Notes under the pieces: generated by a model | Databases searched by the model: none | What the model was told of the DNA's origin: nothing | What the model saw: the letters and a program-made list of their open reading frames with translations, nothing else | Made by a program: the position numbers and the translations under genes | Shown: positions 1,829-28,498 of the stretch, piece by piece | Layout of the letters: each line of letters begins with the position of its first letter | Numbering within the stretch: position 1 is the stretch's first letter | DNA from: Paracoccus salipaludis | GTDB lineage: Bacteria; Pseudomonadota; Alphaproteobacteria; Rhodobacterales; Rhodobacteraceae | NCBI RefSeq assembly: GCF_002287065.1 | Contig: NZ_NSJZ01000007.1 | Span: forward strand, 1 to 64,000 | Length of the DNA: 64,000 nucleotides | Reading direction: 5' to 3'

Positions 1829-1878
1829 GGTTTGCCTGCGACAGTTGTTGCAGGGAACCACGGCGATTCGGACGAACG

Positions 1879-3054
1879 ATGCAGGGCGCAGCGGACAGCA
1901 CGGAGGCGACGGCTCGGGGCGGGCAAGTGCTGCGACGCCACGTTGCCGCCTTGGCCGCGCGCCGCCGCGCGACCGGGGCGACCGAGGATCCCCCGCAGTC
2001 ATCCCCCGGCAGGCCAGTCCCCCGACCGCCCGAACGGATCATCTCCGGCGCGCTCGGCCGCGCGGCCGAGCGGGTGCATGGCCTGCCGCTGTTCTTCGAC
2101 CGCGTCGAGGTGCGCCAGGCCGGGCTTGCGGAACTGGCCGAGTGTCTGCCCGAACCTGCGCTGATCCTTGTGGCCGAGGGGCCTGCCGAGGCCTTGGGCG
2201 CAGTGGCGATCTGCCCCGGCCTGCTCGCCTCGGTGATCGAGATGCAGGCGGTCGGGCGCGTCTCCTCCCGTGTCCTTCCGATGCGCCGTCCCACCCGGAC
2301 CGACGGCGCGATCTGCGCCGATCTCGTGAATGCCTGCCTGTTCGAGCTGGGCGACGAGCTTGCGTCGCAGCCGGGGTTCGAGGGCCTGCGCGGCTTCCGA
2401 TACGCCAGCTTCCTGGATGACGCGCGCCCCCTTGGGCTGATGCTCGAGGACACGGCGTTCCATCTGCTGTCGGTCCATCTGCGCGCGGGAAACGCCGGGC
2501 AGCGCGACGGGCGCATGGTCATCGCGCTTCCGGTCGCCACGGCCGTTCGGCAGGCCGAGACAAGAGCCATTCTGCTTGAACCCAAGCCCGAGGAGCCGCC
2601 GCCCGAAGCGGCCGGCGAAATCTGCCCGGCGGGCTCTCTGGCCGGGACGGTCAGAACCGTTCCCATCGATCTGGTCGGGATCTTGGGCCGGCGCATGATC
2701 TCTCTGGGTGAACTGCGCAGCCTGTCTCCGGGCGACACGATTGCCCTGCCGGCGGCCCTCCTTTCGGCCGCGACGCTCGAAACGACCGGGGGGCAGGTCC
2801 TGTTCCGGGGCAAGCTGGGGGAATTCGCCGGCCGCCACGCCCTGCGGCTGGTCGGCGGCGCGGAAGGCGCGACCGCCCCGGCGAGCGGCTGGACCCAGCA
2901 CGAGCAGGCGTCCGTCCGGGCCCTGGCGCATGAGCCGCCCATTGCCGATCTGGGCACCCCGGATGCCTTCCGGGATGGCGAGGCCGTGCCGTCCGTGCCG
3001 CGATCGGCTCTGCCGGCCGGACCGGAGGCGGCCGGGGCCGCGCTTGCCGTCTAG
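1879..3054 (+). CDS. FliM/FliN-family (SPOA domain) protein, orphan
   Basis: A 391-residue soluble protein. Its C-terminal third (about 258-326) resembles a SPOA (FliM/FliN surface-presentation) domain: it begins VPIDLVGILGRRMISLGEL, continues with SPGDTIALP and ends in GEFAGRHALRLV. Residues 52-225 could correspond to the FliM middle (CheC-like) domain but are divergent, and the last 60 residues are low-complexity. FliM forms the flagellar switch ring with FliG and FliN. No other flagellar gene is in the window. The ATG at 1879 was chosen over a GTG at 1822 because homologous-looking sequence begins here; the ribosome site is poor. Confidence 0.68.
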   Translation: MQGAADSTEATARGGQVLRRHVAALAARRRATGATEDPPQSSPGRPVPRPPERIISGALGRAAERVHGLPLFFDRVEVRQAGLAELAECLPEPALILVAEGPAEALGAVAICPGLLASVIEMQAVGRVSSRVLPMRRPTRTDGAICADLVNACLFELGDELASQPGFEGLRGFRYASFLDDARPLGLMLEDTAFHLLSVHLRAGNAGQRDGRMVIALPVATAVRQAETRAILLEPKPEEPPPEAAGEICPAGSLAGTVRTVPIDLVGILGRRMISLGELRSLSPGDTIALPAALLSAATLETTGGQVLFRGKLGEFAGRHALRLVGGAEGATAPASGWTQHEQASVRALAHEPPIADLGTPDAFRDGEAVPSVPRSALPAGPEAAGAALAV

Positions 3055-3726
3055 GCTGCTGCGGCTGCACCCAGGACGGCCGTCCGGGAAAGCCTCAGGG
3101 CGCTCAGCCGAGAGTCGGTGCTGTCATGGTCCGCTCTGCTGCAGGACCGGTCCTCCCCTGCCTCTCGTCCGTGGAAGCGCGCTGACAGCGGCTGGGCGCG
3201 CCGGTCAAGTCGGGACCGGGCCCTTCGGTCAATCCTGCGAACAACCGCACGAACGCCACCCGCAACGCAGGACAATGGGGGCGGACGGGCAACCCATCCT
3301 CTCCCTGTCGCGCGGCATGCTCCTTTGCGGCAGCTACCCGGATGAACCGGTCGGGGCATGCGGGCCGGCGCCGTGGATCACGACGGTGCCCGAACGCAGC
3401 AGGGAGGTCCTGAAATGGCAAGTCCCGGCTTGAGAGAGGCACAAGCACCCAGAGCCGCATCGGCCCGTGAGGGGGGATACCGGGCACGAAACGGGACACC
3501 GTCCCTAAGCGCCTTTCTTCCTTGCCGCCCGAAGGGGCCTCATCGCCGGCCCCACAGAACCTTGAACGGCAGGGATCACCATGCCCGCCGGCAAGGCTGC
3601 GAAGGCCCCCTCACGCCTTCCGCGCCGTCTGCCGCCCGCGGGCTTGCTGCAAGCGGGCCGGCCTGCCGCCCCAGAGACCTTGCCGACAGGACGCTGCGGG
3701 TCCCTCGGGCCGCCAGCATCCCTGTT
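3055..3726. other. 672-base stretch with no convincing gene
   Basis: This gap separates the FliM-like gene from the 3' end of dprA. It seems somewhat less GC-biased at third positions than its neighbours. Short palindromes occur (GGACGGCCGTCC at 3074-3085, GGACCGGTCC near 3150). A GGAGG about 7 bases before an ATG at 3415 would open a 192-codon frame running antisense into dprA, but its product has no recognisable features and looks like a composition artefact. No tRNA arms, terminators with T-tracts, or transposon ends were seen. It may be a decayed gene. Confidence 0.5.
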
Positions 3727-5085
3727 CTATCCCGCCAGGGCGATCCGGCCGCCGGGCAGGCGGATGACGCGGCCCTCGAGTTCGAGGTCGAGAAGCGCAG
3801 GCGCGAGATGGGCGGGCGAGACGCCGAGGTCGCGGATGACGCTGTCTTCCTCGGCAGGCGAGGGACCCAGCAGGTCCAGCAGCCGGAGGCGCAGCTCGAC
3901 GAGGTCTGCGCCCGGAGCCTGCGCCGGTGCGCCGCGCGCCTTCGGGTCCTGCAGCGATTGCCGAGGAGCCGGGCCTGCCTCCATCCCCGGTGATGTGGCA
4001 GAGGGGCCGGAGATCCCCGGGCACGCTTTCCCCTCCGGATCAGGCGAGGCCGATGGTCCGGTTTCGTCCTCCCGGCGCGCCACCGCCGCGGCACCCGAGC
4101 GGGGCACGCCGGAATCAACTCCAATCCGCTGCCCTTCCGGCGCTTGCCCCCGGGCGGCCCGCGTCACCGCGCCGCTCTCCCCGAGCGCCGCGATGACATC
4201 CTCGGCGTTGCGCACCAGCGTCGCGCCGTCACGGATCAGCGCGTTGCAGCCGGCGGCGCGGGCATCCAGCGGATGGCCAGGAACCGCCATGATCTCGCGT
4301 CCCTGATCGGCGCCGCAGCGTGCGGTGATGAGGCTGCCCGAGCGGTGGGCGGCCTCGATCACCACCACGCCCGCCGACAGGCCCGAGACGATGCGGTTGC
4401 GGGCGGGAAAGTGGCGGGCGACCGGCTCGACGCCCGGCGGCTGCTCGGTCAGCAGGCAGCCGGTCTCGGCGATGCGATCGGCCAGGGCGCGGTTCTCGGC
4501 CGGGTAGATGACGTCGATGCCCCCCGCCATGACGGCCACGGTGCCCGCGTCGCAGCTTGCCTCATGCGCGGCGGTGTCGATGCCGCGCGCGAGGCCTGCC
4601 GTCACGGTCAGCCCCGCCTCGGCAAGGCCGCGCGCAAGTCCCCGCGCCATGCGCAGCCCCAGCGAAGAGGCGTTGCGCGCCCCGATCACCGCGATCGCAG
4701 GGCGTTCCAGCGCCTCGACCCGGCCGCGCATCCACAGCACCGGCGGCGCATCAGCGACGGTCGCCAGAAGGGGCGGATAGGCCGGGTCGTCGAATCGGAT
4801 CAGCCGCGCCTTGGCTCGCGCTCCGGCGGCGAGTTCGGCTTGGGCAACGCCGGGGGGGCAGGGTGCGTAGCCCTCGATCCCCGCCTCGGCGGCGATGCCG
4901 GGCAGGGCCTCGAGCGCGGCGGCCGCGCTGCCGTGTTCGGCCAGAAGGCGGTGAAAGGTCGCCGGTCCCACGCGGCGCGAGCGGATGAGGCGAAGGACCG
5001 CAAGGTCATCTTCCCTCGGGGTGGGTGGGGCTTCGGGGGTAACGAGAGAAAACGATCGCGCCTGCAAAGCCGGTCCCTGCCTCAT
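3727..5085 (-). CDS. dprA: DNA-processing protein DprA
   Basis: DprA binds incoming single-stranded DNA and loads RecA during transformation; in Rhodobacter it is needed by recipients of gene transfer agents. The 452-residue product has an N-terminal helix-hairpin-helix region (about 28-75), then the Rossmann-like DprA core with GARNASSLG (136-144), TAGLARGIDTAAH (162-174), ARNRIVSGLS (228-237) and SLITA (251-255). A low-complexity linker of about 80 residues leads to a C-terminal winged helix (about 390-450). The usual Ser in SGLAxGID is Ala here. The start at 5085 lacks a strong ribosome site. A CtrA-like motif lies 29 bases upstream. Confidence 0.95.
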   Translation of the reverse strand: MRQGPALQARSFSLVTPEAPPTPREDDLAVLRLIRSRRVGPATFHRLLAEHGSAAAALEALPGIAAEAGIEGYAPCPPGVAQAELAAGARAKARLIRFDDPAYPPLLATVADAPPVLWMRGRVEALERPAIAVIGARNASSLGLRMARGLARGLAEAGLTVTAGLARGIDTAAHEASCDAGTVAVMAGGIDVIYPAENRALADRIAETGCLLTEQPPGVEPVARHFPARNRIVSGLSAGVVVIEAAHRSGSLITARCGADQGREIMAVPGHPLDARAAGCNALIRDGATLVRNAEDVIAALGESGAVTRAARGQAPEGQRIGVDSGVPRSGAAAVARREDETGPSASPDPEGKACPGISGPSATSPGMEAGPAPRQSLQDPKARGAPAQAPGADLVELRLRLLDLLGPSPAEEDSVIRDLGVSPAHLAPALLDLELEGRVIRLPGGRIALAG

Positions 5086-5113
5086 CCGCAGGGACGGTCT
5101 CGCACGGGATTGG

Positions 5114-5128
5114 TTAAGATTCCGTTAG
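5114..5128 (-). promoter_or_regulatory. Candidate CtrA site upstream of dprA
   Basis: Read on the dprA strand this is CTAA-N7-TTAA followed by CC: one mismatch to the full TTAA-N7-TTAA(CC) consensus. It lies 29-43 bases before the dprA start. In Rhodobacter capsulatus, dprA and other competence genes needed for gene-transfer-agent uptake are known to depend on CtrA, so the location makes sense. TTAA is rare in this GC-rich sequence. Confidence 0.5.
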
Positions 5129-5138
5129 CGCGGCCCGG

Positions 5139-6557
5139 TCAGGCCGCCGAGCCGCCGACCGTGAGCCCGCCGATCAGCAGCGTGGGCTGGCCCACGCCCA
5201 CCGGCACCCACTGCCCCTGCTTGCCGCAGTTGCCGACGCCGGGGTCCAGCGCGAGGTCGTTGCCCACGGCCCGGATCTGGCGCAGCGCGGTGGCGCCGTC
5301 ACCGATCAGGGTGGCGCCGCGAATCGGCTCTCCGACCTCGCCGTTCTTCACGCGGTAGGCCTCGGTGCAGGAAAAGACGAACTTGCCGTTGGTGATGTCC
5401 ACCTGGCCCCCGCCGAAGCCCACGGCATAGATGCCGTCCGCGAGGCCCGACAGGATGGCGGCCGGATCGTCGGTGCCGGGGTCCATCATGGTGTTGGTCA
5501 TGCGCGGCATGGGCGCGTGCGCGTGGCTTTCCCGCCGCCCGTTGCCCGTGGGCGCGACCCCCATCAGCCGGGCGTTCTGCCGGTCCTGAAGATAGCCCAC
5601 CAGGATGCCGTCCTCGATCAGCACGTTGCGCTGGGGTGGCGTGCCCTCGTCGTCCACGGTGATCGAGCCGCGCCGGTCGGGCAGGGTGCCGTCGTCCACC
5701 ACCGTCACGCCGGGCGCGGCGATGCGCTGGCCCATCAGGCCCGAGAAGGCCGAAGCCTTCTTGCGGTTGAAGTCGCCTTCCAGCCCGTGGCCCACCGCCT
5801 CGTGCAGCAGGATGCCGGGCCAGCCCGGTCCCAGCACCACGTCCATGACGCCCGCGGGCGCGGGGACGGACCGCAGGTTGACCTGCGCGATCCGCAGAGC
5901 CTCGCGCACCAGACCCTGCCAATGCGCGGGCTCCATCAGCGCGGACAGGCCGAATCGCCCGCCGCCGCCCGCCGTGCCGGTTTCGCGGCGCGCGTTCGAT
6001 TCCACGATCACCGACACGTTCAGCCGCGCCATGGGGCGGATGTCGGACACGATGCCTCCCTCGGGCCGCAGGATCACGACCTCCTGCAGCGAGGAGGCGA
6101 GCGAGGCCGTCACCTGCACCACGCGCGGGTCGAGGTCGCGGGCGAAGGCGTCGATGTCGCGCAGGGTGGCGATGCGGGCGCCGAACTCGATCCCGCCCAC
6201 GGGGTCCGCGTCGGTGTAAAGCCGCGGCCCCGGCCCGGCCGGGGCTGGCGCCAGCACGCCGCCGCCGGTGCCCACGGCCAGCCGCGCCATGGAGGCCGCG
6301 TCGCGCAGCGCGGCTTCGGTGATGTCGGTGGAATGGGCGTATCCCGTGACCTCGCCGCGCACGGCGCGCAGGCCGAAGCCCTGAGAGGCGTTGTAGCCCG
6401 CGCTGCGCAGCCGCCCGTCGTCGAAGACCAGGCTTTCGCCGCGGGCGCGTTCCAGGAACAGCTCGCCATCCTCGGCGCCGAGCGTCGCCTCGCGCAGGAT
6501 GGCAAGGGCCCGGTCGGGGTCGATCAGGTCGGCGAAGGGGTCGAAGCGATCACTCAT
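5139..6557 (-). CDS. tldD: Metalloprotease TldD
   Basis: TldD pairs with TldE (PmbA) to form a cytoplasmic zinc protease that trims peptides such as microcin precursors and CcdA. The 472-residue product carries the zinc motif HEAVGH (residues 252-257), followed by GLEGDFNRK, and near the end the conserved FSCTEAYRVKNGEVGEP segment with the third ligand Cys. The ATG at 6557 (MSDRF) was preferred to one three codons upstream as it fits the usual N-terminus. It is divergent from the cta operon, an arrangement common in Rhodobacteraceae. Confidence 0.96.
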   Translation of the reverse strand: MSDRFDPFADLIDPDRALAILREATLGAEDGELFLERARGESLVFDDGRLRSAGYNASQGFGLRAVRGEVTGYAHSTDITEAALRDAASMARLAVGTGGGVLAPAPAGPGPRLYTDADPVGGIEFGARIATLRDIDAFARDLDPRVVQVTASLASSLQEVVILRPEGGIVSDIRPMARLNVSVIVESNARRETGTAGGGGRFGLSALMEPAHWQGLVREALRIAQVNLRSVPAPAGVMDVVLGPGWPGILLHEAVGHGLEGDFNRKKASAFSGLMGQRIAAPGVTVVDDGTLPDRRGSITVDDEGTPPQRNVLIEDGILVGYLQDRQNARLMGVAPTGNGRRESHAHAPMPRMTNTMMDPGTDDPAAILSGLADGIYAVGFGGGQVDITNGKFVFSCTEAYRVKNGEVGEPIRGATLIGDGATALRQIRAVGNDLALDPGVGNCGKQGQWVPVGVGQPTLLIGGLTVGGSAA

Positions 6558-6587
6558 GATTGCCACCGGAGGTAGGGGTTTTTTGGG

Positions 6588-6640
6588 GACAAGTCGATAG
6601 CAATGGCTTGTCGGGTGGCGTCAGATGTGGTTGTGACAAG
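6588..6640. promoter_or_regulatory. GACAAG/CTTGTC repeats between tldD and ctaC
   Basis: Three copies of one hexamer: GACAAG at 6588-6593, its inverse CTTGTC at 6607-6612, and GACAAG again at 6635-6640. The first two form an inverted repeat with a 13-base spacer. They sit in the 166-base divergent region before tldD and ctaC and could bind a regulator. The factor is unknown. Confidence 0.35.
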
Positions 6641-6723
6641 ATGACGCGATGGGGAGAAGGGCGCCGTCCGCGGCCGGCCCGACCGGACCCTGTCGAGACG
6701 CAGGACAGAACGGGAATCGACGA

Positions 6724-7626
6724 ATGGCGAACTGGGCAAGGGGCCGCGTGACGGCAGGGCTGATGGCGGCGGGCCTCCTCGCGGCGAACCTGGCGATGAC
6801 GGGCACGGCGATGGCGCAGGACGTGCTGGGCGATCTGCCGATCATTGGCAAGCCGCAGCCCGGCGCGATCGGGTTCCAGCCCGCGTCCAGCTCGCTGGCG
6901 CATGACCAGCAGTGGCTGGACCGCTTCGTGCTGTGGATCATCACCGGCATCACGATCGTTGTCTGCCTGCTGATCCTGTGGTGCATCGTCCGCTTCAACC
7001 GCCGCGCCAACCCGGTGCCCGCGCGCTTCACCCACAACACCCCGGTCGAGGTGCTGTGGACGGTGGGGCCTGTCCTGATCCTGCTGACCATCGGCATCTT
7101 CTCGCTGCCGGCGCTGTTCCGGTCGCAGGAAATGCCGTCCGACCCGGACCTGGTCATCAAGGCGATCGGCCACCAGTGGTACTGGTCCTACGAATATCCC
7201 AACGACGCCATCGCCTTCGATGCGCTGATGCTGGCGCGCGAGGAACTGGGCGACTACGGCTACACCGAGGACGAGTATCTGCTGGCCACCGACAATCCCA
7301 TCGTGGTCCCGGTCGGCGCGACGGTGCTGATGCAGGTGACGGCCACCGACGTGATCCACTCCTGGGCGATGCCTGCCTTTGCGGTGAAGCAGGACGCCGT
7401 GCCCGGCCGGATCGCGCAGCTGTGGTTCGAGGTGGACAAGGAAGGCGTCTACTTCGGCCAGTGCTCGGAGCTTTGCGGCATCAACCACGCCTACATGCCG
7501 ATCGTCGTGAAGGCCGTCAGCCAGGAGAAGTATGACGCCTGGCTGGCCGAGGCGAAGACGACCATGTCGGCCGACGCCTCGTCCCACCTGCCCGCCGCGC
7601 CCGTGCGGCTGGCCCAGGCGAACTGA
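6724..7626 (+). CDS. ctaC: Cytochrome c oxidase subunit II (aa3 type)
   Basis: Subunit II carries the CuA centre that takes electrons from cytochrome c and passes them to haem a. The 300-residue precursor has a signal peptide cut after Ala31 (AMA|QDVLG), two membrane spans (about 68-90 and 110-132) and a periplasmic cupredoxin domain. CuA ligands are visible: His212, Cys247, Glu249, Cys251, His255 and Met258 ([12 protein letters not shown]). The mature N-terminus QDVLGDLP is nearly that of Paracoccus denitrificans. The ATG at 6724 gives a proper signal peptide. First gene of the cta operon. Confidence 0.98.
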
Positions 7627-7634
7627 TCAGGCCG

Positions 7635-8573
7635 GTGAGCGACATCCGCGCATATGAGTCCGCGTCCCCCCGCATCGCGGCCGGGGGCGAGGGCGAGTTC
7701 GGCGACTATGTCGCGCTGCTGAAGCCGCGCGTGATGTCGCTGGTCGTCTTCACGGCCTTTGTCGGGCTGTATGTGGCCCCCGTGTCGGTGAACCCGGTCG
7801 TGGCCTTTGCGTCGGTGCTGTTCATCGCGCTGGGCGGGGGCGCCTCGGGCGCGCTGAACATGTGGTACGACGCCGACATCGACGCCGTGATGAACCGGAC
7901 CCGCAAGCGCCCCGTTCCCGCGGGCCGCGTTTCGGCCGAGGAGGCGCTGGGCGTCGGGCTGTTCCTGTCGGGCCTGTCCGTGCTGATGCTGGGGCTTGCG
8001 GCCAACTGGTTCGCGGCCGGCTTCCTTGCCTTCACGATCTTCTTCTACGCGGTCATCTACACGGTCTTCCTCAAGCGCTCGACACCGCAGAACATCGTGA
8101 TCGGCGGCGCGGCGGGCGCCTTCCCGCCCATGATCGGCTGGGCCTGCGCCACCGGCGGCCTTTCGATCGAGCCGCTGCTGATGTTCGCGCTGATCTTCTT
8201 CTGGACCCCGCCCCATTTCTGGGCGCTGGCGCTGTTCATGAAGGAGGATTACCACAACGCCGGCGTGCCCATGCTGACGGTCACGCACGGCCGCGAAGCC
8301 ACGCGCCGCCACGTCTTCGGCTATACGCTGGTGCTGGCCCCGTTCGCGGTGGCGATCGGCCTCACGTCGGTCGGCGGGCCGGTCTACATGGCGGTCGCGC
8401 TGGTGCTGAACGCGCTGTTCATCCGCGGCGGCTGGCAGATCCTGCGCCGCACCGAGGAACAGGCGCAGGCCGACGGCTATCGCGCCGAGAAGGGCTTCTT
8501 CCGCCTGTCGCTGTACTACCTGGCGCTGCATTTCGCGGCGCTGGCGGTCCAGGCCACGCTGGGGACATGGTGA
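7635..8573 (+). CDS. ctaB: Haem O synthase (protoheme IX farnesyltransferase)
   Basis: CtaB attaches a farnesyl group to haem b to make haem O, the precursor of haem A for the oxidase. This 312-residue UbiA-family membrane enzyme has the prenyl-diphosphate motif [15 protein letters not shown] (residues 75-89) followed by KRPVPAGRV, and a second Asp-rich loop after [12 protein letters not shown]. About eight or nine membrane segments are evident. The start is GTG at 7635, 8 bases after ctaC; the stop overlaps the next ATG (TGATG). Confidence 0.97.
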
Positions 8574-8839: not shown

Positions 8840-9420
8840 CCGCGCGGCCTGACGCGAACAGGCGGCTGGTCTGGCGGCTGCTGGCCGTGGTCGTCACCAT
8901 GGGCGCGCTGTCCTGGGCGGCGGTGCCCTTCTATTCCTGGTTCTGCCAGGTGACGGGCTTCGCCGGCACCACGCAGGTCGCCTCCCAGGGCGCTGACCGC
9001 GTGCTGGACCGCACCGTGCGGGTCCGCTTCGACGCCAACGTCATGCCGGACCTGGGCTGGACCTTCCGTCCCATGCAGACCGAGATGACCGTCCGCCTGG
9101 GCGAGACCGCGATGGCCTATTACGAGGCGGTCAACACCTCGGACCAGACCGTGACCGGCAGCGCGACCTACAACGTCGCCCCCGACGACGCGGGCTATTT
9201 CTTCGAGAAGATCGAGTGCTTCTGCTTCACCGAGCAGACGCTGGCCCCCGGCGAACGGATCGAGATGCCGCTGACCTTCTTCGTCAGCCCCGACATGGTG
9301 GACGACCGCGACGCGGGGCATATCCGCGACATCACGCTCAGCTACACCTTCTTCCGCCAGGACGCGCAGAAATCGGCCAGCGCCGAGGTGGACGCAGCCC
9401 CGGCGACCGCCCTAAACTGA
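8836..9420 (+). CDS. ctaG: Cytochrome c oxidase assembly protein CtaG/Cox11
   Basis: CtaG (Cox11) inserts copper into the CuB site of subunit I. The 194-residue protein has one N-terminal membrane span (about 12-33) and a periplasmic immunoglobulin-like domain with the copper-binding CFCF motif (Cys128 and Cys130), plus Cys37 just after the span, which is also conserved. Its ATG overlaps the stop of the preceding small gene. Confidence 0.97.
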
Positions 9421-9453
9421 ACGCCCACGACGACCCCAGAGAGAGCCCGCGAC

Positions 9454-10272
9454 ATGGCCCACGCCAAGAACCACGATTATCACATCCTGCCGCCCTCGCT
9501 GTGGCCGTTCCTGGGCGCGATCGGCGCATTCATCATGCTGATGGGCGCGGTCTTCTGGATGAAGGGCATGGGCGTCCTGGGGCTGCCCTCCTGGGCGATG
9601 TTCGCCGTCGGGGCGCTGATGGTGGCCTACACCATGTGGGGCTGGTGGTCCGACGTCACGCACGAGGGCAACAGCGGCGACCATACGCCCGTGGTCCAGA
9701 TCGGCCTTCGCTACGGCGTGATCCTGTTCATCATCTCGGAGGTGATGTTCTTCGCCGCCTGGTTCTGGGCCTTCTTCAAGAACGCGCTCTACCCGATGGG
9801 CGAGATGAGCCCGATCGTGGACGGAGTCTGGCCGCCCGAAGGGATCCAAACCTTCGATCCCTGGCACCTGCCCTTCATCAACACGCTGATCCTGCTGCTG
9901 TCGGGCTGCGCCGTCACCTGGGCGCACCATGCGCTGGTGCATGACAACGACCGCAAGACGGTGATCCGCGGGCTGGCCGTGGCGGTGATCCTGGGCGTCG
10001 CCTTCACCTTCCTGCAGGCCTATGAATACAGCCACGCGGCCTTCGGCCTGTCGGACACCGTCTATGGCGGCGTCTTCTTCATGGCGACCGGCTTCCACGG
10101 CGTCCATGTCATCATCGGGACGATCTTCCTGCTGGTCTGCCTGATCCGCTTCATGCGGGGCGAGATGAACGACCGCCAGCACATCGGCTTCGAGGCGGCC
10201 GCCTGGTACTGGCACTTCGTGGACGTGGTCTGGCTGTTTCTCTTCGCCGCCATCTACGTCTGGGGCCGCTGA
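9454..10272 (+). CDS. ctaE: Cytochrome c oxidase subunit III
   Basis: Subunit III stabilises the aa3 oxidase and supports proton uptake during turnover. The 272-residue product has the expected seven membrane segments and family motifs: WWSDVTHEG near residue 67, [13 protein letters not shown] near 95-107, and [14 protein letters not shown] near the C-terminus. GAGAG at 9438-9442 precedes the ATG by 11 bases. Subunit I (ctaD) is not in the window, as in Paracoccus where it is encoded elsewhere. Confidence 0.98.
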
Positions 10273-10293
10273 TCCCCGCATCCGATCCCCGAG

Positions 10294-10317
10294 GCGCGCG
10301 GGCCCGTCCCCGCGCGC
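10294..10317 (+). terminator. GC-rich hairpin after ctaE
   Basis: Nine-base perfect stem GCGCGCGGG / CCCGCGCGC with a six-base loop, followed by only TTTC. It may weaken rather than end transcription into the SURF1 gene. Confidence 0.45.
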
Positions 10318-10371
10318 TTTCGCCGTTTCAGGGCCTTCCGCCCCGTTGCCGCCCCCTCAAGGCACCTGCCC

Positions 10372-11046
10372 ATGCTGCGCCGCCTGCTTGTCCTGCTGAT
10401 CCCCGGCCTTGCCCTGACCGCCGTGCTGGCGTCCCTCGGCGTCTGGCAGCTGCACCGGATGGAGTGGAAGGCCCAGCAGCTTGCCGCCATCCAGCGCGGG
10501 ATCGAGCAGCCTCCCGGTCCCCTGCCGCCTGCCATCGATCCCTCAATGCGCTACCTGCCCGTCATCGTCCCGGGCCGCACCACCGGAGAGGAGATCCTGG
10601 TCCTGTCCGGCACGCGCGAACTGGGCGGCGGCTACAATGTCATATCGGCCTTCCAGACCGATGACGGCCGCCGGATCATGGTGGACCGGGGCTTCATCCC
10701 GCAGGACGACCGCCACGCGGCCCGCCCTTCCGTGGCGCTGACGGTCACGGGCAACCTGCACTGGCCCGACGAGAAGGGCCGCTCGACCCCCGAGCCGGAC
10801 CTGAAGGCCGGGATCTGGTTCGCCCGCGAGGTGCCGCGCATGGCCGAGCATCTGGGCACCGAACCCGTGCTGGTCGTCGCCAGCGCCGTTCAGGGCGACG
10901 CGCAGGGTGTGATGCCGATGCCGCTGGACATCGGCGGCATCCCGAACAACCACCTGTCCTATGCGGTGCAGTGGTTCACCTTCGCGCTGATCTGCTTCGG
11001 GATGACAATGGCGCTGGCGTGGCGTATCCGGCGGCAAACCGACTGA
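10372..11046 (+). CDS. SURF1 family oxidase assembly protein
   Basis: SURF1 (Shy1) helps place haem a in cytochrome oxidase; Paracoccus homologues bind haem. The 224-residue protein has the SURF1 layout: an N-terminal membrane span followed by LGVWQLHRMEWKAQQL (about 23-38), a periplasmic domain, VDRGFIPQ (about 103-110), and a C-terminal NNHLSYAVQWFTFALIC (about 191-207) leading into a second span. In many relatives a DUF983 gene lies between ctaE and this gene; here there are only 99 bases. Confidence 0.93.
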   Translation: MLRRLLVLLIPGLALTAVLASLGVWQLHRMEWKAQQLAAIQRGIEQPPGPLPPAIDPSMRYLPVIVPGRTTGEEILVLSGTRELGGGYNVISAFQTDDGRRIMVDRGFIPQDDRHAARPSVALTVTGNLHWPDEKGRSTPEPDLKAGIWFAREVPRMAEHLGTEPVLVVASAVQGDAQGVMPMPLDIGGIPNNHLSYAVQWFTFALICFGMTMALAWRIRRQTD

Positions 11047-11056
11047 AGGGAAGACG

Positions 11057-12445
11057 ATGCGCTATATCTCGACCCGCGGGCAGGCGCCCGTGCTGCCCTT
11101 TGCCGAGGCGATGATGACCGGGCTCGCCCGCGACGGCGGCCTGTATGTCCCCGAAGCGATCCCGCAGATGGATGCGGGCGCCATCGCGGCGCTGGAAGGG
11201 CAGTCCTACGAGGAGGCCGCCTTCCGGGTCATGCAGCCCTTCGTGGCGGAAAGCTTTTCCGAAAACGAACTGCGCCAGGCCATCCGCCGTGCCTACCAGG
11301 GCTTCGGCCATGCCGCGCGCGCGCCGCTGGTGCAGCTCGCGCCGGGCCATCACCTGCTGGAACTGTTCCACGGGCCGACGCTGGCCTTCAAGGACTTCGC
11401 CATGCAGCTGATCGGCCAGCTGTTCCAGGTGGCGCTGGCCCGCGAGGGCCGCCGCGTCACCATCGTCGGCGCGACCTCGGGCGATACCGGCTCGGCCGCG
11501 ATCGAGGCCTTCCGCGGCCTGCCGAACGTCGATGTCTTCATCCTCTACCCGCACGGCCGGGTCAGCGAGGTGCAGCGGCGGCAGATGACGACGCCCGACG
11601 ACGCCAACGTCCATGCCCTCGCCATCGACGGCACCTTCGACGACGCGCAGGCGCGGCTGAAGGACCTGTTCAACGACCACGGCTTCCGCGATGGCGTGGG
11701 GCTGGCCGGGGTGAACTCGATCAACTGGGCGCGGGTGCTGGCGCAGGTGGTCTATTACTTCACAAGCGCCGTGTCGCTGGGGGCGCCCCACCGCCCGGTC
11801 AGCTTCACCGTGCCGACCGGCAACTTCGGCGACATCTTCGCGGGCACCATCGCCCGCGCCATGGGCCTGCCGGTGGACCGGCTGGTGATCGCCACGAACC
11901 AGAACGACATCCTCGACCGCGCCATGCGGACCGGCAGCTACGAGGTCGGCCGGGTCGAGCCGTCCGTCTCGCCGTCCATGGACATCCAGGTCAGCTCCAA
12001 CTTCGAGCGTGCGCTGTTCCACGCGCTGGACGGCGATGGCGCGGCCGTCGCGCAGCTGATGCAGGAACTGAAGGGCGGTTCCTTCAGCATCCCCCAAGGT
12101 GCGCTGCAGCACCTGCGCGAAATCTACGACTCGGGCCGGGTGTCAGAACCCGAGACGCTGGCGACCATCGCCCGCGTCCGCGCCGAGACGGGCGAGGTCG
12201 TCTGCCCCCATACCGCCGTCGGCATCAAGGTCGCGGACGAGTATCGCAAGGCGGGTGTCCCCATGATCACGCTGGCCACCGCCCATCCCGCCAAGTTCCC
12301 CGACGCGGTGGAACAGGCCATCGGCATCCGCCCGCCCTTGCCGCCCCACATGGCCCGGCTGTTCGACCTGCCCGAACGGGTGACCCGGGTTGAAAACGAC
12401 AACGAGGCGCTTAAGTCCCTGATCCTTGAACGGAGAATGGCTTGA
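11057..12445 (+). CDS. thrC: Threonine synthase
   Basis: ThrC converts O-phosphohomoserine to threonine with pyridoxal phosphate. The 462-residue protein begins MRYISTRG, typical of the long proteobacterial form. The PLP lysine is Lys112 in TLAFKDFAMQ, and the cofactor phosphate loop is ATSGDTGSAA (about 142-151). It follows SURF1 by 10 bases with GAAGG upstream, and its end overlaps the TTG start of the M16 peptidase by 4 bases. Confidence 0.97.
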   Translation: MRYISTRGQAPVLPFAEAMMTGLARDGGLYVPEAIPQMDAGAIAALEGQSYEEAAFRVMQPFVAESFSENELRQAIRRAYQGFGHAARAPLVQLAPGHHLLELFHGPTLAFKDFAMQLIGQLFQVALAREGRRVTIVGATSGDTGSAAIEAFRGLPNVDVFILYPHGRVSEVQRRQMTTPDDANVHALAIDGTFDDAQARLKDLFNDHGFRDGVGLAGVNSINWARVLAQVVYYFTSAVSLGAPHRPVSFTVPTGNFGDIFAGTIARAMGLPVDRLVIATNQNDILDRAMRTGSYEVGRVEPSVSPSMDIQVSSNFERALFHALDGDGAAVAQLMQELKGGSFSIPQGALQHLREIYDSGRVSEPETLATIARVRAETGEVVCPHTAVGIKVADEYRKAGVPMITLATAHPAKFPDAVEQAIGIRPPLPPHMARLFDLPERVTRVENDNEALKSLILERRMA

Positions 12446-13707
12446 ACGACGTCCAGATCACGACTCTTCCCAATGGCCTGCGGGTCGCCACGCGGCTGAT
12501 GCCGGGACTGCATTCCGCCAGCGTCGGCATCTGGGTCAATGCCGGCGGGCGCGACGAACGCGCCGAACAGAACGGCATCGCGCATTTCCTGGAACACATG
12601 GCCTTCAAGGGCACCGCGCGCCGGTCCGCCCTGCAGATCGCGGAAGCCATCGAGGACGTGGGCGGCTACATCAACGCCTATACCTCGCGCGACGTGACGG
12701 CCTATTACGCGCGCGTCCTGTCGGGCGACGTGGAGCTGGCGCTGGACGTGATCGGCGACATCGTCCTGAACCCGGCCTTCGACCCGCGCGAGATCGAGGT
12801 CGAGCGCGGCGTGATCCTGTCCGAGATCGGCCAGAGCCTCGACACCCCCGACGACGTGATCTTCGACTGGCTGCAGGAAGCGGCCTATCCGGGCCAGCCG
12901 ATCGGGCGCACGATCCTCGGTCCCGCCGAACGCGTCTCGGGTTTCTCGCGCGAGGATCTCGCGGGCTTCGTGGGCGAGCATTACGGCCCCGGCCAGATGA
13001 TCGTGGCCGCCGCCGGCGCCGTCGATCACGACGCGCTGGTGCGGCAGGCCGAGGAGAACTTCGGCCACCTCACGCCGCTTCTGGGCGTCGCGCGGGAGGC
13101 CGCCGTCTGGCAGGGTACCGAGGCCCGTCGCGTCAAGAAGCTGGAACAGGCGCATTTCGCGCTGGCCTTCGAGGGGCCGGGCTACCTGGACCCCGACTTC
13201 TATGCCGCGCAGATCTGGACCAGCGCGCTGGGGGGCGGCATGTCCTCGCGCCTGTTCCAGAAGATCCGCGAGGAACGGGGGCTCTGCTATTCCATCTTCG
13301 CGCAGTCGGGCTTTCATGACGACACCGGCATGGTGACGATCTATGCGGGCACCTCGGGCGACCAGGTCGCGGACCTCGCGCACCTGACCATCGACGAGAT
13401 CCGCCGCTCGGCCGAGGATCTGGGCGAGGCCGAGGTTGCGCGCGCCAAGGCGCAGCTGAAGGCCGGTCTGCTGATGGGGCTGGAAAGCCCCTCGGGGCAG
13501 GCGGAACGCATCGCCCGGGCGTTGTCGATCTGGGGCCGGGTGCCGGATGCCGAAGAGGTTGCGCGGCGCATCGACGCGGTGACGGCCGGCGACGTGCGCG
13601 ACCACGCGCAGCGCATGATCGCGCGGGCGCAGCCGGCGCTGGCGCTTTACGGTCCCGTCCGCAAGGCGCCGCTGCGCGAGGCGCTGGCCGAACGGCTCGC
13701 CGCCTGA
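12442..13707 (+). CDS. M16 family zinc peptidase (processing-peptidase like)
   Basis: A 421-residue inverzincin peptidase related to the beta subunit of mitochondrial processing peptidase. The zinc motif HxxEH is His48-Phe-Leu-Glu51-His52, and the third ligand is probably Glu128 in ERGVILSEI. The inactive-half signature with RLFQKIREERGLCYS appears near residue 270. It is a single-gene bacterial form; the natural substrate is unknown. The start is TTG overlapping the thrC stop, and the stop overlaps the next ATG, so thrC, this gene and the acetyltransferase form a tight unit. Confidence 0.95.
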   Translation: MNDVQITTLPNGLRVATRLMPGLHSASVGIWVNAGGRDERAEQNGIAHFLEHMAFKGTARRSALQIAEAIEDVGGYINAYTSRDVTAYYARVLSGDVELALDVIGDIVLNPAFDPREIEVERGVILSEIGQSLDTPDDVIFDWLQEAAYPGQPIGRTILGPAERVSGFSREDLAGFVGEHYGPGQMIVAAAGAVDHDALVRQAEENFGHLTPLLGVAREAAVWQGTEARRVKKLEQAHFALAFEGPGYLDPDFYAAQIWTSALGGGMSSRLFQKIREERGLCYSIFAQSGFHDDTGMVTIYAGTSGDQVADLAHLTIDEIRRSAEDLGEAEVARAKAQLKAGLLMGLESPSGQAERIARALSIWGRVPDAEEVARRIDAVTAGDVRDHAQRMIARAQPALALYGPVRKAPLREALAERLAA

Positions 13708-14288
13708 TGTTCCTGCGCCGCCATGCGCCCCGGCTGGAAACCGAGCGCATGGTGCTGCGCCTGCCCGCGCATGGCGACTTTGCCGCCTGGACAAGCCTGC
13801 GTGCGGAAAGCCGCGAGTTCCTGACGCCCTGGGAACCGGTCTGGCATGCCGACCACCTGTCGCGCCGCGCCTTCACCAACCGTGTCTACTGGGCCGCGCG
13901 GGCAAGCCGCAGCGGCACCTCTCTGCCGCTGTTCCTGGTGCGTCAGGACGGCGTGCTGCTGGGGGCGATCACGCTGGACGGCATCCGGCGCGGCCCGGCG
14001 CAGATGGGAACGCTCGGCTACTGGGTCGGCGCGCCCTTTGCCCGGCAGGGCTACATGCGCGAGGCGATCGGGGCGGTGGTGAGTCATGCCTTCGGCCTGA
14101 TGGACCTGTCCCGGATCGAGGCCGCCTGCCTGCCCGAGAACGTGGCCAGCCGGGGCGCGCTGGAAAGCTGCGGTTTCAAGTACGAGGGCGTTGCGCAGTC
14201 CTACCTGCAGATCAACGGACGCTGGCGCAACCACGTGCTTTATTCGATCCTGCGCGCCGACCGGCGCGGGCGGACCGAGGCGGGCTAG
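13707..14288 (+). CDS. GNAT family N-acetyltransferase (RimJ/RimL type)
   Basis: A 193-residue GNAT protein. Its opening LETERMVLRLPAHGDFAAW is typical of the RimJ/RimL subgroup, and the acetyl-CoA region is GYWVGAPFARQGYMREAIGA followed by an ENVASRGALESCGFKYEG segment. Such proteins acetylate ribosomal proteins or small amines; the substrate cannot be told here. The ATG overlaps the M16 stop. Confidence 0.9.
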   Translation: MFLRRHAPRLETERMVLRLPAHGDFAAWTSLRAESREFLTPWEPVWHADHLSRRAFTNRVYWAARASRSGTSLPLFLVRQDGVLLGAITLDGIRRGPAQMGTLGYWVGAPFARQGYMREAIGAVVSHAFGLMDLSRIEAACLPENVASRGALESCGFKYEGVAQSYLQINGRWRNHVLYSILRADRRGRTEAG

Positions 14289-14290
14289 AA

Positions 14291-14350
14291 GGGGGCGCTG
14301 CTCCCGCCACTCTGGCGAGTGGCTCCCCCGGGATATTTGGGCAAAGGAGA
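14291..14350 (+). repeat. Dispersed intergenic repeat, copy A
   Basis: GGGGGCGCTGCTCCCG, then a GCCACT/AGTGGC hairpin (14306-14323), then the core CCGGGATATTTGGGCAAAG. Related copies lie near 18946, 38681, 44312 and 51271. Its end supplies the AAAGGAGA ribosome site of the next gene. Confidence 0.6.
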
Positions 14351-14355
14351 ACTGC

Positions 14356-15750
14356 ATGCTGAACCCCGCCGATGACCGGCTGATCGCGGCGCTGCCCGAG
14401 GGCGTCGTCCGTCCGCTCGAGCCGCGGCACCTGGACGAGCCGCGCGGCTATTTCGCGGGGCAGGGCGGGCTGCTGGCGGTGCCGCGCAACGTCGAGGAAG
14501 TGGCGGCGGTCGTGCGTGCCTGCGCCGAGGCGCGGGTGGCGGTGCTGCCGCGGGGGGGCGGGACCGGTCTGGTCGCGGGATCGGTCATGCCGGAAGGGCC
14601 CGCGCCGCTGGTCCTGTCCATGGAACGCATGACGGCCATCCGCAACGTCTGGCCCGACGAGGATGCGCTGGTGGCCGAAGCCGGCGTCACCCTGCAGCAG
14701 GTGCAGGACGCCGCCGCCGCCGTGGACCGCCAGTTCCCGCTGTCGCTGGCAAGCCAGGGCACGGCCCAGATCGGCGGCGTGCTGGCGGCGAACGCCGGCG
14801 GCACGGGCGTGCTGCGCTGGGGCAATGCCCGCGCGCTCTGCCTGGGGATCGAGGCGGTGATGCCCGACGGGTCGATCCTGCGCGACCTCAAGCGGCTGCG
14901 GAAGGACAACACCGGCTATTCCATCCGCGATCTCATGATCGGGGCCGAGGGCACGCTGGGGATCATCACGGCGGCCACGCTGAAGCTCGCGCCCCGCCCG
15001 GCGGCGGTGGCGACGGCGATGCTGGCCGTGCCGGACCCGCAGGCGGCGCTGCAACTGCTGTCGCTGGCGCAGGGCATGATGGCGGGCTGCGTCACGACCT
15101 TCGAGCTCATCTCGGGGCAGGGCCTTGCCTTTGTCGCCGAAACGCTGCCGGAAATCCGCCAGCCTTTGCCCGGGGCGCCCTGGTCGGTTCTGCTGGAGCT
15201 GTCGCTGCCGAAGGGGATCGACCCGGACGCGGCGGTCGAGGACCTGCTGGGACAGGCGATGGAGGAGGGCCTCGTGCTGGACGGCGCCATCGCCCAGTCG
15301 GGCCAGCAGGCCGCCGAGTTCTGGAACCTGCGCGAGCACCTGCCCGAGGCGAACCGGCGCATCGGCGCGATCTCCTCGCATGACATCAGCCTGCCCCTGT
15401 CCGAAATCCCGCGCTTCATCGAGGACGCGGGCGCGATGATCGCGGGCATGGGCGACATGCGGATCAACTGCTTCGGCCACCTGGGCGACGGCAACCTGCA
15501 TTACAACGTCTTCCCCGGCGCAGGCCGCTCGCGTGCGGATTACGCCGACCTTCGGTTCAGGCTGCCCGAGGCGATCTACGGGATGGTGGTGGAACGCGGC
15601 GGCTCCTTCTCGGCCGAGCATGGGGTGGGACGGCTCAAGGTCGCGGACCTCGAACGCTGGGGCGACCCGGTGAAGCTGTCGGCCATGCGGGCGATCAAGG
15701 CGGCGCTGGACCCGCAGGGGATCATGAACCCCGGCGCGATCCTCGCCTGA
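14356..15750 (+). CDS. FAD-binding oxidoreductase (GlcD / D-lactate dehydrogenase type)
   Basis: A 464-residue flavoenzyme of the VAO/PCMH fold, oxidising a D-2-hydroxyacid (D-lactate, glycolate or 2-hydroxyglutarate class). FAD-binding motifs are PRGGGTGLVAGS (65-76) and the GAEGTLGIIT segment; the C-terminal FAD-oxidase domain has GHLGDGNLHYNV and EHGVG near the end. No iron-sulfur domain or partner subunit is present, so it is probably a single-subunit enzyme; the exact substrate is undetermined. AAAGGAGA lies 6 bases before the ATG. Confidence 0.92.
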   Translation: MLNPADDRLIAALPEGVVRPLEPRHLDEPRGYFAGQGGLLAVPRNVEEVAAVVRACAEARVAVLPRGGGTGLVAGSVMPEGPAPLVLSMERMTAIRNVWPDEDALVAEAGVTLQQVQDAAAAVDRQFPLSLASQGTAQIGGVLAANAGGTGVLRWGNARALCLGIEAVMPDGSILRDLKRLRKDNTGYSIRDLMIGAEGTLGIITAATLKLAPRPAAVATAMLAVPDPQAALQLLSLAQGMMAGCVTTFELISGQGLAFVAETLPEIRQPLPGAPWSVLLELSLPKGIDPDAAVEDLLGQAMEEGLVLDGAIAQSGQQAAEFWNLREHLPEANRRIGAISSHDISLPLSEIPRFIEDAGAMIAGMGDMRINCFGHLGDGNLHYNVFPGAGRSRADYADLRFRLPEAIYGMVVERGGSFSAEHGVGRLKVADLERWGDPVKLSAMRAIKAALDPQGIMNPGAILA

Positions 15751-15751
15751 G

Positions 15752-15789
15752 TTGAACCCCGTCGCCGCCCGGCCTATATCGGGCGGCGA
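15752..15789 (+). promoter_or_regulatory. Promoter with perfect inverted repeat upstream of the PACE gene
   Basis: TTGAAC (15752-15757), 17-base spacer, TATATC (15775-15780). A perfect 10-base inverted repeat, TCGCCGCCCG (15762-15771) and CGGGCGGCGA (15780-15789), has the -10 in its 8-base centre. This may be an operator. It could also be a terminator stem of the upstream gene, although no T-run follows. Confidence 0.5.
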
Positions 15790-15848
15790 AGGACGACCTT
15801 CCCCGTCATGGGCAGCATTCGGGACGGCCCGCAAAGGAACCGTTTCCC

Positions 15849-16301
15849 ATGCGCACGACCCTTGACCGCATCCGCCACGCCATCGTGTTCGAACTGGTCG
15901 GCCTTGTCCTGATGATCGGCGGCGGCCCGATCCTGACCGGCTTCGACGCCCATTCCCTGGGCGTCATCGGCGTGGTCTCCTCGCTGGTCGCGACCGCCTG
16001 GAACTATGTCTACAACCTGGGTTTCGACCGGGCGATGCTGCGGCTGCGGGGCAGCGTCCTCAAGACCCACCCCCTGCGCGCCCTGCACGCTCTGCTGTTC
16101 GAGGGCGGGCTGCTGGTCCTGCTGCTGCCCTTTGTCGCCTGGATGCTGGGCGTGTCGCTGTGGCAGGCCTTCCTGTTCGACCTTGCCATCGCGGTCTTCT
16201 ACATCGTCTATGGCTACGCCTATAACTGGGTCTATGACCGGGTGTTCCCCATGCCCGAGGCGCGGGAGGCTTACACCCCGTCGAACTCGCAAAGGGCGTG
16301 A
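15849..16301 (+). CDS. PACE family multidrug efflux transporter
   Basis: A 150-residue inner-membrane protein made of two bacterial transmembrane pair domains, hence four spans. Family signatures are [13 protein letters not shown] near the N-terminus, [12 protein letters not shown] (about 50-61) and its second-half counterpart [12 protein letters not shown] (about 121-132). PACE proteins (AceI type) export chlorhexidine and other biocides or short-chain diamines. The gene has its own predicted promoter containing an inverted repeat. Its last 31 bases overlap the 3' end of apt on the opposite strand. Confidence 0.93.
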
Positions 16302-28395: not shown

Positions 28396-28468
28396 CCGGA
28401 AGGTCGTCCTTCCGGTCCCCGCCTTGTCCGGGGATCGCCCCCCGTCAGCGCGGATGCGCCCACGGGGG
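28396..28468 (+). promoter_or_regulatory. Structured leader of ffh (three hairpins)
   Basis: Hairpin 1: CCGGAAGG / CCTTCCGG with a 4-base loop (28396-28415). Hairpin 2: CCCCG / CGGGG (about 28417-28433). Hairpin 3: CCCCCGT...GCGC-GGAT-GCGC...ACGGGGG (28439-28468), followed 9 bases later by TTTT. It could attenuate or autoregulate ffh. The conserved loop of SRP RNA is absent, so I do not call it ffs. Confidence 0.45.
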
Positions 28469-28498
28469 CAAATGGTGTTTTCTTGCGGAGGGTCCGCG

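Follow-up and report, generated by a model that had tools for sequence, protein, structure and literature searches.

A conserved CtrA-like site upstream of dprA in Paracoccus, retained in a strain whose gene transfer agent cluster is a deletion relic

The start of dprA in this Paracoccus strain is preceded by a sequence resembling a CtrA site, which raises two questions: whether CtrA controls the gene, and whether such control ties the strain to gene transfer agents (GTAs). In Rhodobacter capsulatus, dprA and the com genes are reported in later, citing papers to be under CtrA and quorum control, as a GTA recipient regulon (Brimacombe 2014, 2015). The window, the whole stretch of DNA analysed here, spans 64 kb of an assembly of 3.67 Mb (187 contigs, 99.65% complete), labelled G000 among the genomes compared. 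The dprA open reading frame occupies 3727..5085 on the minus strand and encodes 452 amino acids from an ATG at 5085. A domain search matches DprA_N, DNA_processg_A and DprA_WH, all three DprA domains, which marks the product as a real DprA; its top relative in named genomes is from Paracoccus chinensis (77%), followed by other Paracoccus. Upstream on the same strand lies a gene at 5139..6566, which we take from its sequence to be tldD-like. It ends with a stop at 5139, leaving a 53-bp gap inside which the predicted dprA promoter falls. Elsewhere in the window, a Guanidine-II (mini-ykkC) riboswitch match on the plus strand (15785-15832, 34.0 bits, where the gathering score is 32) is followed after 16 bp by a 150-amino-acid frame (15849-16301) that, read by sequence, resembles a small multidrug-type membrane protein, and an ffh sRNA family match lies at 28424-28477 on the plus strand (63.4 bits).

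The CtrA-like full site, delimited by sequence, conservation and logo, is a direct repeat CTAAC-N6-TTAACC with an 11-bp period at 5112..5128 on the minus strand. Read from 5128 to 5112 it is CTAAC GGAATC TTAACC, with the left half at 5128..5124 and the right half at 5117..5112. A direct repeat with this period fits an OmpR-type regulator such as CtrA, not an FNR-type dimer. The preliminary description had correctly reported CTAA-N7-TTAA-CC on the dprA strand, but the distance from the site to the ATG at 5085 is 26 bases, not 29. The CtrA repeat form TTAA-N7-TTAA(C) is present as CTAA-N7-TTAAC, in which the left half starts with C rather than T; this leading C is found in 73% of the aligned sequences of the genus. 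The site is the sole match of YTAA-N7-TTAA, hereafter the strict pattern, in a window that holds five TTAA tetranucleotides. With up to one mismatch, TTAA-N7-TTAA also matches once, against a mean of 0.36 in shuffled windows, 30 of 100 of which reach one match. Taken singly, the window site is not beyond chance; it is significant because it is conserved across Paracoccus.

That conservation was followed through the dprA upstream regions of all 125 genomes of the genus, 30 taken from earlier loci and 95 fetched. The strict site is present in 94 of the 125, against a mean of 0.1 genomes in first-order Markov shuffles and none for the reversed pattern, and NTAAC-N6-TTAAC is present in 107. Of the 31 genomes lacking a strict site, 19 pair TTAAC with GTAAC or ATAAC and so depart from it by nothing but the opening base of the left half, G010 carries ATAAC with TTAAG, eight have an altered half-site and G062 has no recognisable site; the misses also include G057, in which a contig end cuts the upstream region, and G121, in which the 5′ part of dprA is absent. 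Over 40 named Paracoccus loci taken together, the strict pattern matches 30 times in the 15.6 kb that surround the dprA start (from 330 bases ahead of the match to 60 beyond it) and never in the other 221 kb. The logo of 122 aligned Paracoccus genomes reads gCTAACCnnTTnTTAACC, with a −10-like element following 10 nt on.

Beyond the genus, the TTAAC half-site, aligned at its best place within 300 bp, is found at 38/40 Paracoccus and 38/39 other Rhodobacteraceae named dprA loci. An A stands at an equal distance downstream of TTAAC in 92% of the aligned Paracoccus loci and 89% of the others. The left half in the other Rhodobacteraceae is mostly TTTAC (16 loci) or TTCAC (12), and the strict pattern occurs there at 1 of the 39 loci, counted after leaving out L059, which has no upstream sequence. 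Judged from these alignments, a looser form of the dprA site is present across Rhodobacteraceae. In the Paracoccus and CtrA literature, as represented by abstract openings with few subscription papers, a CtrA site at Paracoccus dprA is not named.

The logo also defines the likely promoter. The −10-like element of the window copy, GAGACC, lies at 5096..5101 on the minus strand, 10 nt after TTAACC, and its A at 5100 corresponds to logo position 28, where 83% of the 122 aligned Paracoccus genomes have A. Taking this A as −11, the predicted transcription start (+1) would be at 5089 on the minus strand and the box would span about −39 to −23. The CtrA-activated promoters described in R. sphaeroides serve flagellar genes rather than dprA, and share this arrangement of a CtrA site near −35 and an invariant A at −11 (PMC6180460); the predicted dprA promoter has the same geometry at the level of sequence. 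The window copy's own −10 element is weak, which counts against reading it as a CtrA promoter. With transcription starting near 5089, the ATG at 5085 would be nearly without a leader, so that the true start may lie downstream. Moreover, because this ATG falls within a conserved GATGAGGC-GAGGC stretch that resembles a ribosome-binding region in many relatives, translation of dprA may start further on, for example at TTG 5067.

The regulator on whose presence the preliminary description had made the link depend is encoded in the genome: the CtrA orthologue (G000:C112:39047-39754) scores 406.8 bits with NF045991 against a cut-off of 350, and its best PDB match is the CtrA receiver domain, 4qpj. 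A CtrA match was obtained in 125/125 Paracoccus genomes, of which G103 and G106 have a best match of only ~1e-38, comparable to what other response regulators give, and G009, G012, G023, G026, G052, G079 and G121 a best match that ends at residue 176-193 of 236. Across the strain's own genome, the strict pattern gives 41 strand matches at 26 places, whereas the pattern reversed gives 12. Six of these places belong to ctrA, cckA and fliF (45-55 bp upstream of each), an endolysin/holin pair identified by NF040573 and GTA_holin_3TM (42 bp upstream), radC, where the site and the earliest possible start codon of the frame overlap, and dprA itself; cckA was named from NF046020 (498 bits) and NF046026 (438 bits), both below their 1000-bit cut-offs. 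Three further places lie 41-48 bp before genes for a receiver protein, a PAS protein and a glycosyltransferase with a c-di-GMP domain. The remaining 17 of the 26, including places before Hint-domain, Excalibur-domain, HlyD-type and RTX-repeat genes, are tied to no gene with a link to CtrA, motility, competence, GTA or signalling. Used by itself, the strict pattern thus yields many false positives. An R. capsulatus co-expression module comprises the GTA cluster, endolysin/holin, comM, radC, recA and dprA; its expression falls when ctrA is mutated (PMC4158056).

The competence genes comEC (C57), comM (C155) and comF (C123) accompany dprA in the genome; in none of the 46 genomes searched does comF reach the TIGR00201 cut-off (74.7 bits against 233.55 in our strain). 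The preliminary description had proposed a search of their upstream regions for the same motif, and CtrA-like elements are indeed found at all three, but every one is degenerate and the strict pattern is present in 0/3: each has one TTAA half-site and a degenerate partner, in TTAACC-TTTCGGAAAG for comEC, TTAACC-ATTTGGCAAG for comM and TAAACC-TTCTG-TTAATC for comF. In the best 30 loci of the 46 genomes searched per gene, which include our strain for comEC and comF, comM has a strict site in 25/30, and the upstream regions of comEC and comF have a strict or loose site in 0/30 each. Among these best loci, alignable CtrA-like elements are present at 26/30 (comEC), 28/30 (comM) and 28/30 (comF), with an A at constant distance in 65%, 78% and 100% of them, respectively; in our strain this downstream A is present for comEC and comF and absent for comM. 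At comEC and comF, as far as these alignments go, half-sites with a degenerate partner alone are kept in place.

Direct activation of dprA by CtrA through the 17-bp promoter element is the likely explanation, to which we assign a probability of about 0.8. We infer CtrA binding, dprA activation and the function of the regulon from what can be read in the DNA, that is, the site and its conservation, the promoter geometry, the regulator, the sites at the co-members and the deletion described below. A pair of CtrA subunits would occupy both TAAC half-sites, on one helix face around −35, and recruit sigma-70 RNA polymerase to the weak −10 element with its A at −11. dprA would then be co-expressed with a small CtrA regulon of ctrA, cckA, fliF, radC and the GTA endolysin/holin pair, which comF, comEC and comM would join through weaker sites. 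This putative regulon is similar to the portion of the R. capsulatus GTA regulon concerned with receiving and lysis; with the GTA structural cluster lost by two deletions, the switch would govern DNA uptake and recombination in a strain that makes no GTA particles of its own.

The deletions become apparent on comparison with the GTA cluster of G024, the nearest relative: colinearity (88-90%) extends over three blocks, and two stretches are absent, corresponding to 1856-8416 and 9001-15868 of the reversed locus L381 (about 6.6 and 6.9 kb). Missing with the first stretch are two upstream genes, the portal and, judged by position, the terminase and protease; the second begins at capsid residue 166 and ends at g15 residue 334, and the g15 of our strain is without its first 334 amino acids. 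Portal and capsid were named through genus-wide searches, and the remaining GTA genes by the RcGTA gene order. In G024, g15 is spread over two frames (of 870 and 415 amino acids), and the GTA cluster of this relative may itself not be fully intact. In the genus-wide searches, a GTA portal was not found in our strain's genome (best match 2.4e-18, 31% identity), and of the GTA capsid only residues 6-160 are left, over half being gone. An assembly error is unlikely, because the relic sits inside a 500-kb contig. The genome's single GTA_TIM match (C101:195072) is part of this relic, and we dropped it as a sign of a GTA cluster in the strain.

The genome thus lacks the intact head-tail cluster (terminase, portal, capsid, tail) of an RcGTA-type producer, and it contains a GafA-type activator gene and the endolysin/holin pair. 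The GafA-type protein, encoded at C57:73007 in an open frame of 423 amino acids, has the DUF6456 domain that gafA carries according to PMC9765227. With the head-tail cluster reduced to a deletion relic, building an RcGTA-type particle should be impossible for the strain, which has the look of a GTA non-producer with a recipient-type regulon, a GafA-type gene and lysis genes still in place. The CtrA-dprA link proposed in the preliminary description withstands the refuting conditions set there, with a CtrA orthologue present and CtrA-like elements, if degenerate ones, at the com genes; its further step to gene transfer agents is weakened by the loss of most of the head-tail cluster. The strain may be a recipient of DNA through the GTAs of its relatives, or may take up free DNA.

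PF13547 (GTA_TIM) was not accepted as a GTA marker on its own, as many genomes have several copies, often higher-scoring and probably from prophages. G111 has eight matches, G025 seven, and G090, G013 and G050 six each; the multi-copy frames are mostly about 1300-1400 amino acids long, many score above the presumed GTA copies, and they are probably GTA-related prophages. Two capsid genes in our strain's genome (G000:C112:280837 and G000:C177:105127), with 38% identity to the GTA capsid, are likewise probably of prophage origin. The DUF6456 frame is short in two GTA-less genomes (203 amino acids at G098:C58:5759 and 286 at G123:C9:95399, against about 400), which may reflect decay of the activator; G057, with GTA portal and capsid, likewise has a short DUF6456 frame (195 amino acids).

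A site serving GTA exchange might be expected to change when GTAs are lost. By portal and capsid, 110 genomes were classed as GTA-intact, eight as lost or damaged (G000, G010, G052, G056, G062, G073, G098, G123) and 7/125 were set aside, for unclear GTA status (G023, G075, G100, G103, G104, G121) or a missing dprA upstream region (G057), the 'lost' and 'undetermined' classes being chosen after part of the box sequences was already known. Remnants persist in the lost class: most of the portal in G010, a capsid near a contig end in G056, and portal and GTA_TIM in G073. Half-sites are degenerate, that is, not TAAC with TTAAC, in 6/8 lost against 8/110 intact genomes (Fisher p 2.2e-5, phylogeny-free), and the wider YTAA-N7-TTAA is missing from 6/8 against 23/110 (p 0.003, also phylogeny-free); the six box-degenerate genomes differ partly between the narrow and the wider pattern. 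Four of the six under the narrow pattern, G010, G052, G056 and G062, belong to a single clade whose boxes have each changed differently, and the box variant of G123 is common to its GTA-intact sister G087. On the tree there are five independent pairs, of which two differ in the expected direction, none in the opposite direction and three not at all (p 0.5). Given this tree-based value, the phylogeny-free association was set aside as proof, and the link between GTA loss and decay of the dprA box is suggestive only.

These comparisons bear on what the CtrA-dprA-com set is for. It could serve natural transformation or recombinational repair generally, with the GTA link secondary, and we hold this to be a real possibility that nonetheless falls short of even odds. 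RadC and DprA act in recombination generally, and the box and com genes persist in our strain's GTA-less genome, one of two GTA-lost genomes with a good box; the other is G073, in which no GTA capsid gene was found. Against this stands the clade of four with a damaged or absent GTA cluster, all of whose boxes have lost part of TAAC-N7-TTAAC, each in its own way, as predicted for the loss of a GTA-tied function, but the G052 box still fits YTAA-N7-TTAA.

A somewhat more doubtful alternative is that the strain is a GTA recipient and non-producer whose uptake machinery is kept because the GTAs of neighbouring Paracoccus benefit it. The two deletions are clean against an otherwise colinear relative; the dprA box, comEC, comM, comF, the GafA-type frame and the lysis genes are retained; and 110/125 genomes of the genus were classed as GTA-intact by portal and capsid. 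A recent loss that left no time for decay would, however, account for the same facts, and retention of lysis genes and GafA brings a recipient no benefit. In its fullest form, which we put forward tentatively and as an unlikely rather than a favoured outcome, the strain would be a free-rider that has had its particle genes deleted, has kept the CtrA-driven receiving regulon and takes up GTA DNA from relatives, and the dprA switch would decay once GTA exchange ends for good, as in the clade of four.

It is improbable that the element is another regulator's site, of the LexA/SOS or FNR/Dnr type, or a mere core promoter motif. For Dinoroseobacter shibae, an in silico assignment placed dprA under LexA (PMC6473078), and a Dnr/Fnr site there shares a TTAAC half-site (PMC7232146). 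In Paracoccus, however, the direct TAAC-N7-TAAC is present in 107/125 genomes and the inverted TTAAC-N6-GTTAA in none. As exact patterns, neither the LexA repeats GTTC-N7-GTTC and GAAC-N7-GAAC nor the FNR/Dnr forms TTGAY-N4-RTCAA and TTAAC-N4-GTCAA occur upstream of dprA in Paracoccus (0/125) or in the other Rhodobacteraceae loci (0/39), and on these exact patterns both identities were rejected. A chance match in an AT-poor genome, for which the one-mismatch matches in shuffled windows might speak, is refuted by conservation and spacing across the 125 genomes.

The preferred reading, direct CtrA activation of dprA, places this Paracoccus beside known systems. It shares with R. capsulatus the gene set of dprA, comEC, comM, comF, radC and endolysin/holin, the regulator family and the geometry of CtrA-activated promoters, and differs in that most structural GTA genes are deleted and in that the site is known from comparative genomics. 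The CtrA/LexA network of D. shibae likewise has predicted CtrA sites at comEC, comM and comF; for dprA the assignment there was to LexA, whereas at Paracoccus dprA a CtrA-type site is conserved and a LexA-type repeat is absent (PMC6473078).

CtrA control of dprA had been reported in R. capsulatus; here the site with its promoter geometry is seen across Paracoccus and, in a looser form, across the family, although the dprA of one family member had been assigned to LexA. Our strain and G024 form a close pair, the one without and the other with most GTA particle genes, and both have the receiving genes. The pair allows a direct test of whether receiving outlives GTA production and whether non-producers exploit producers.
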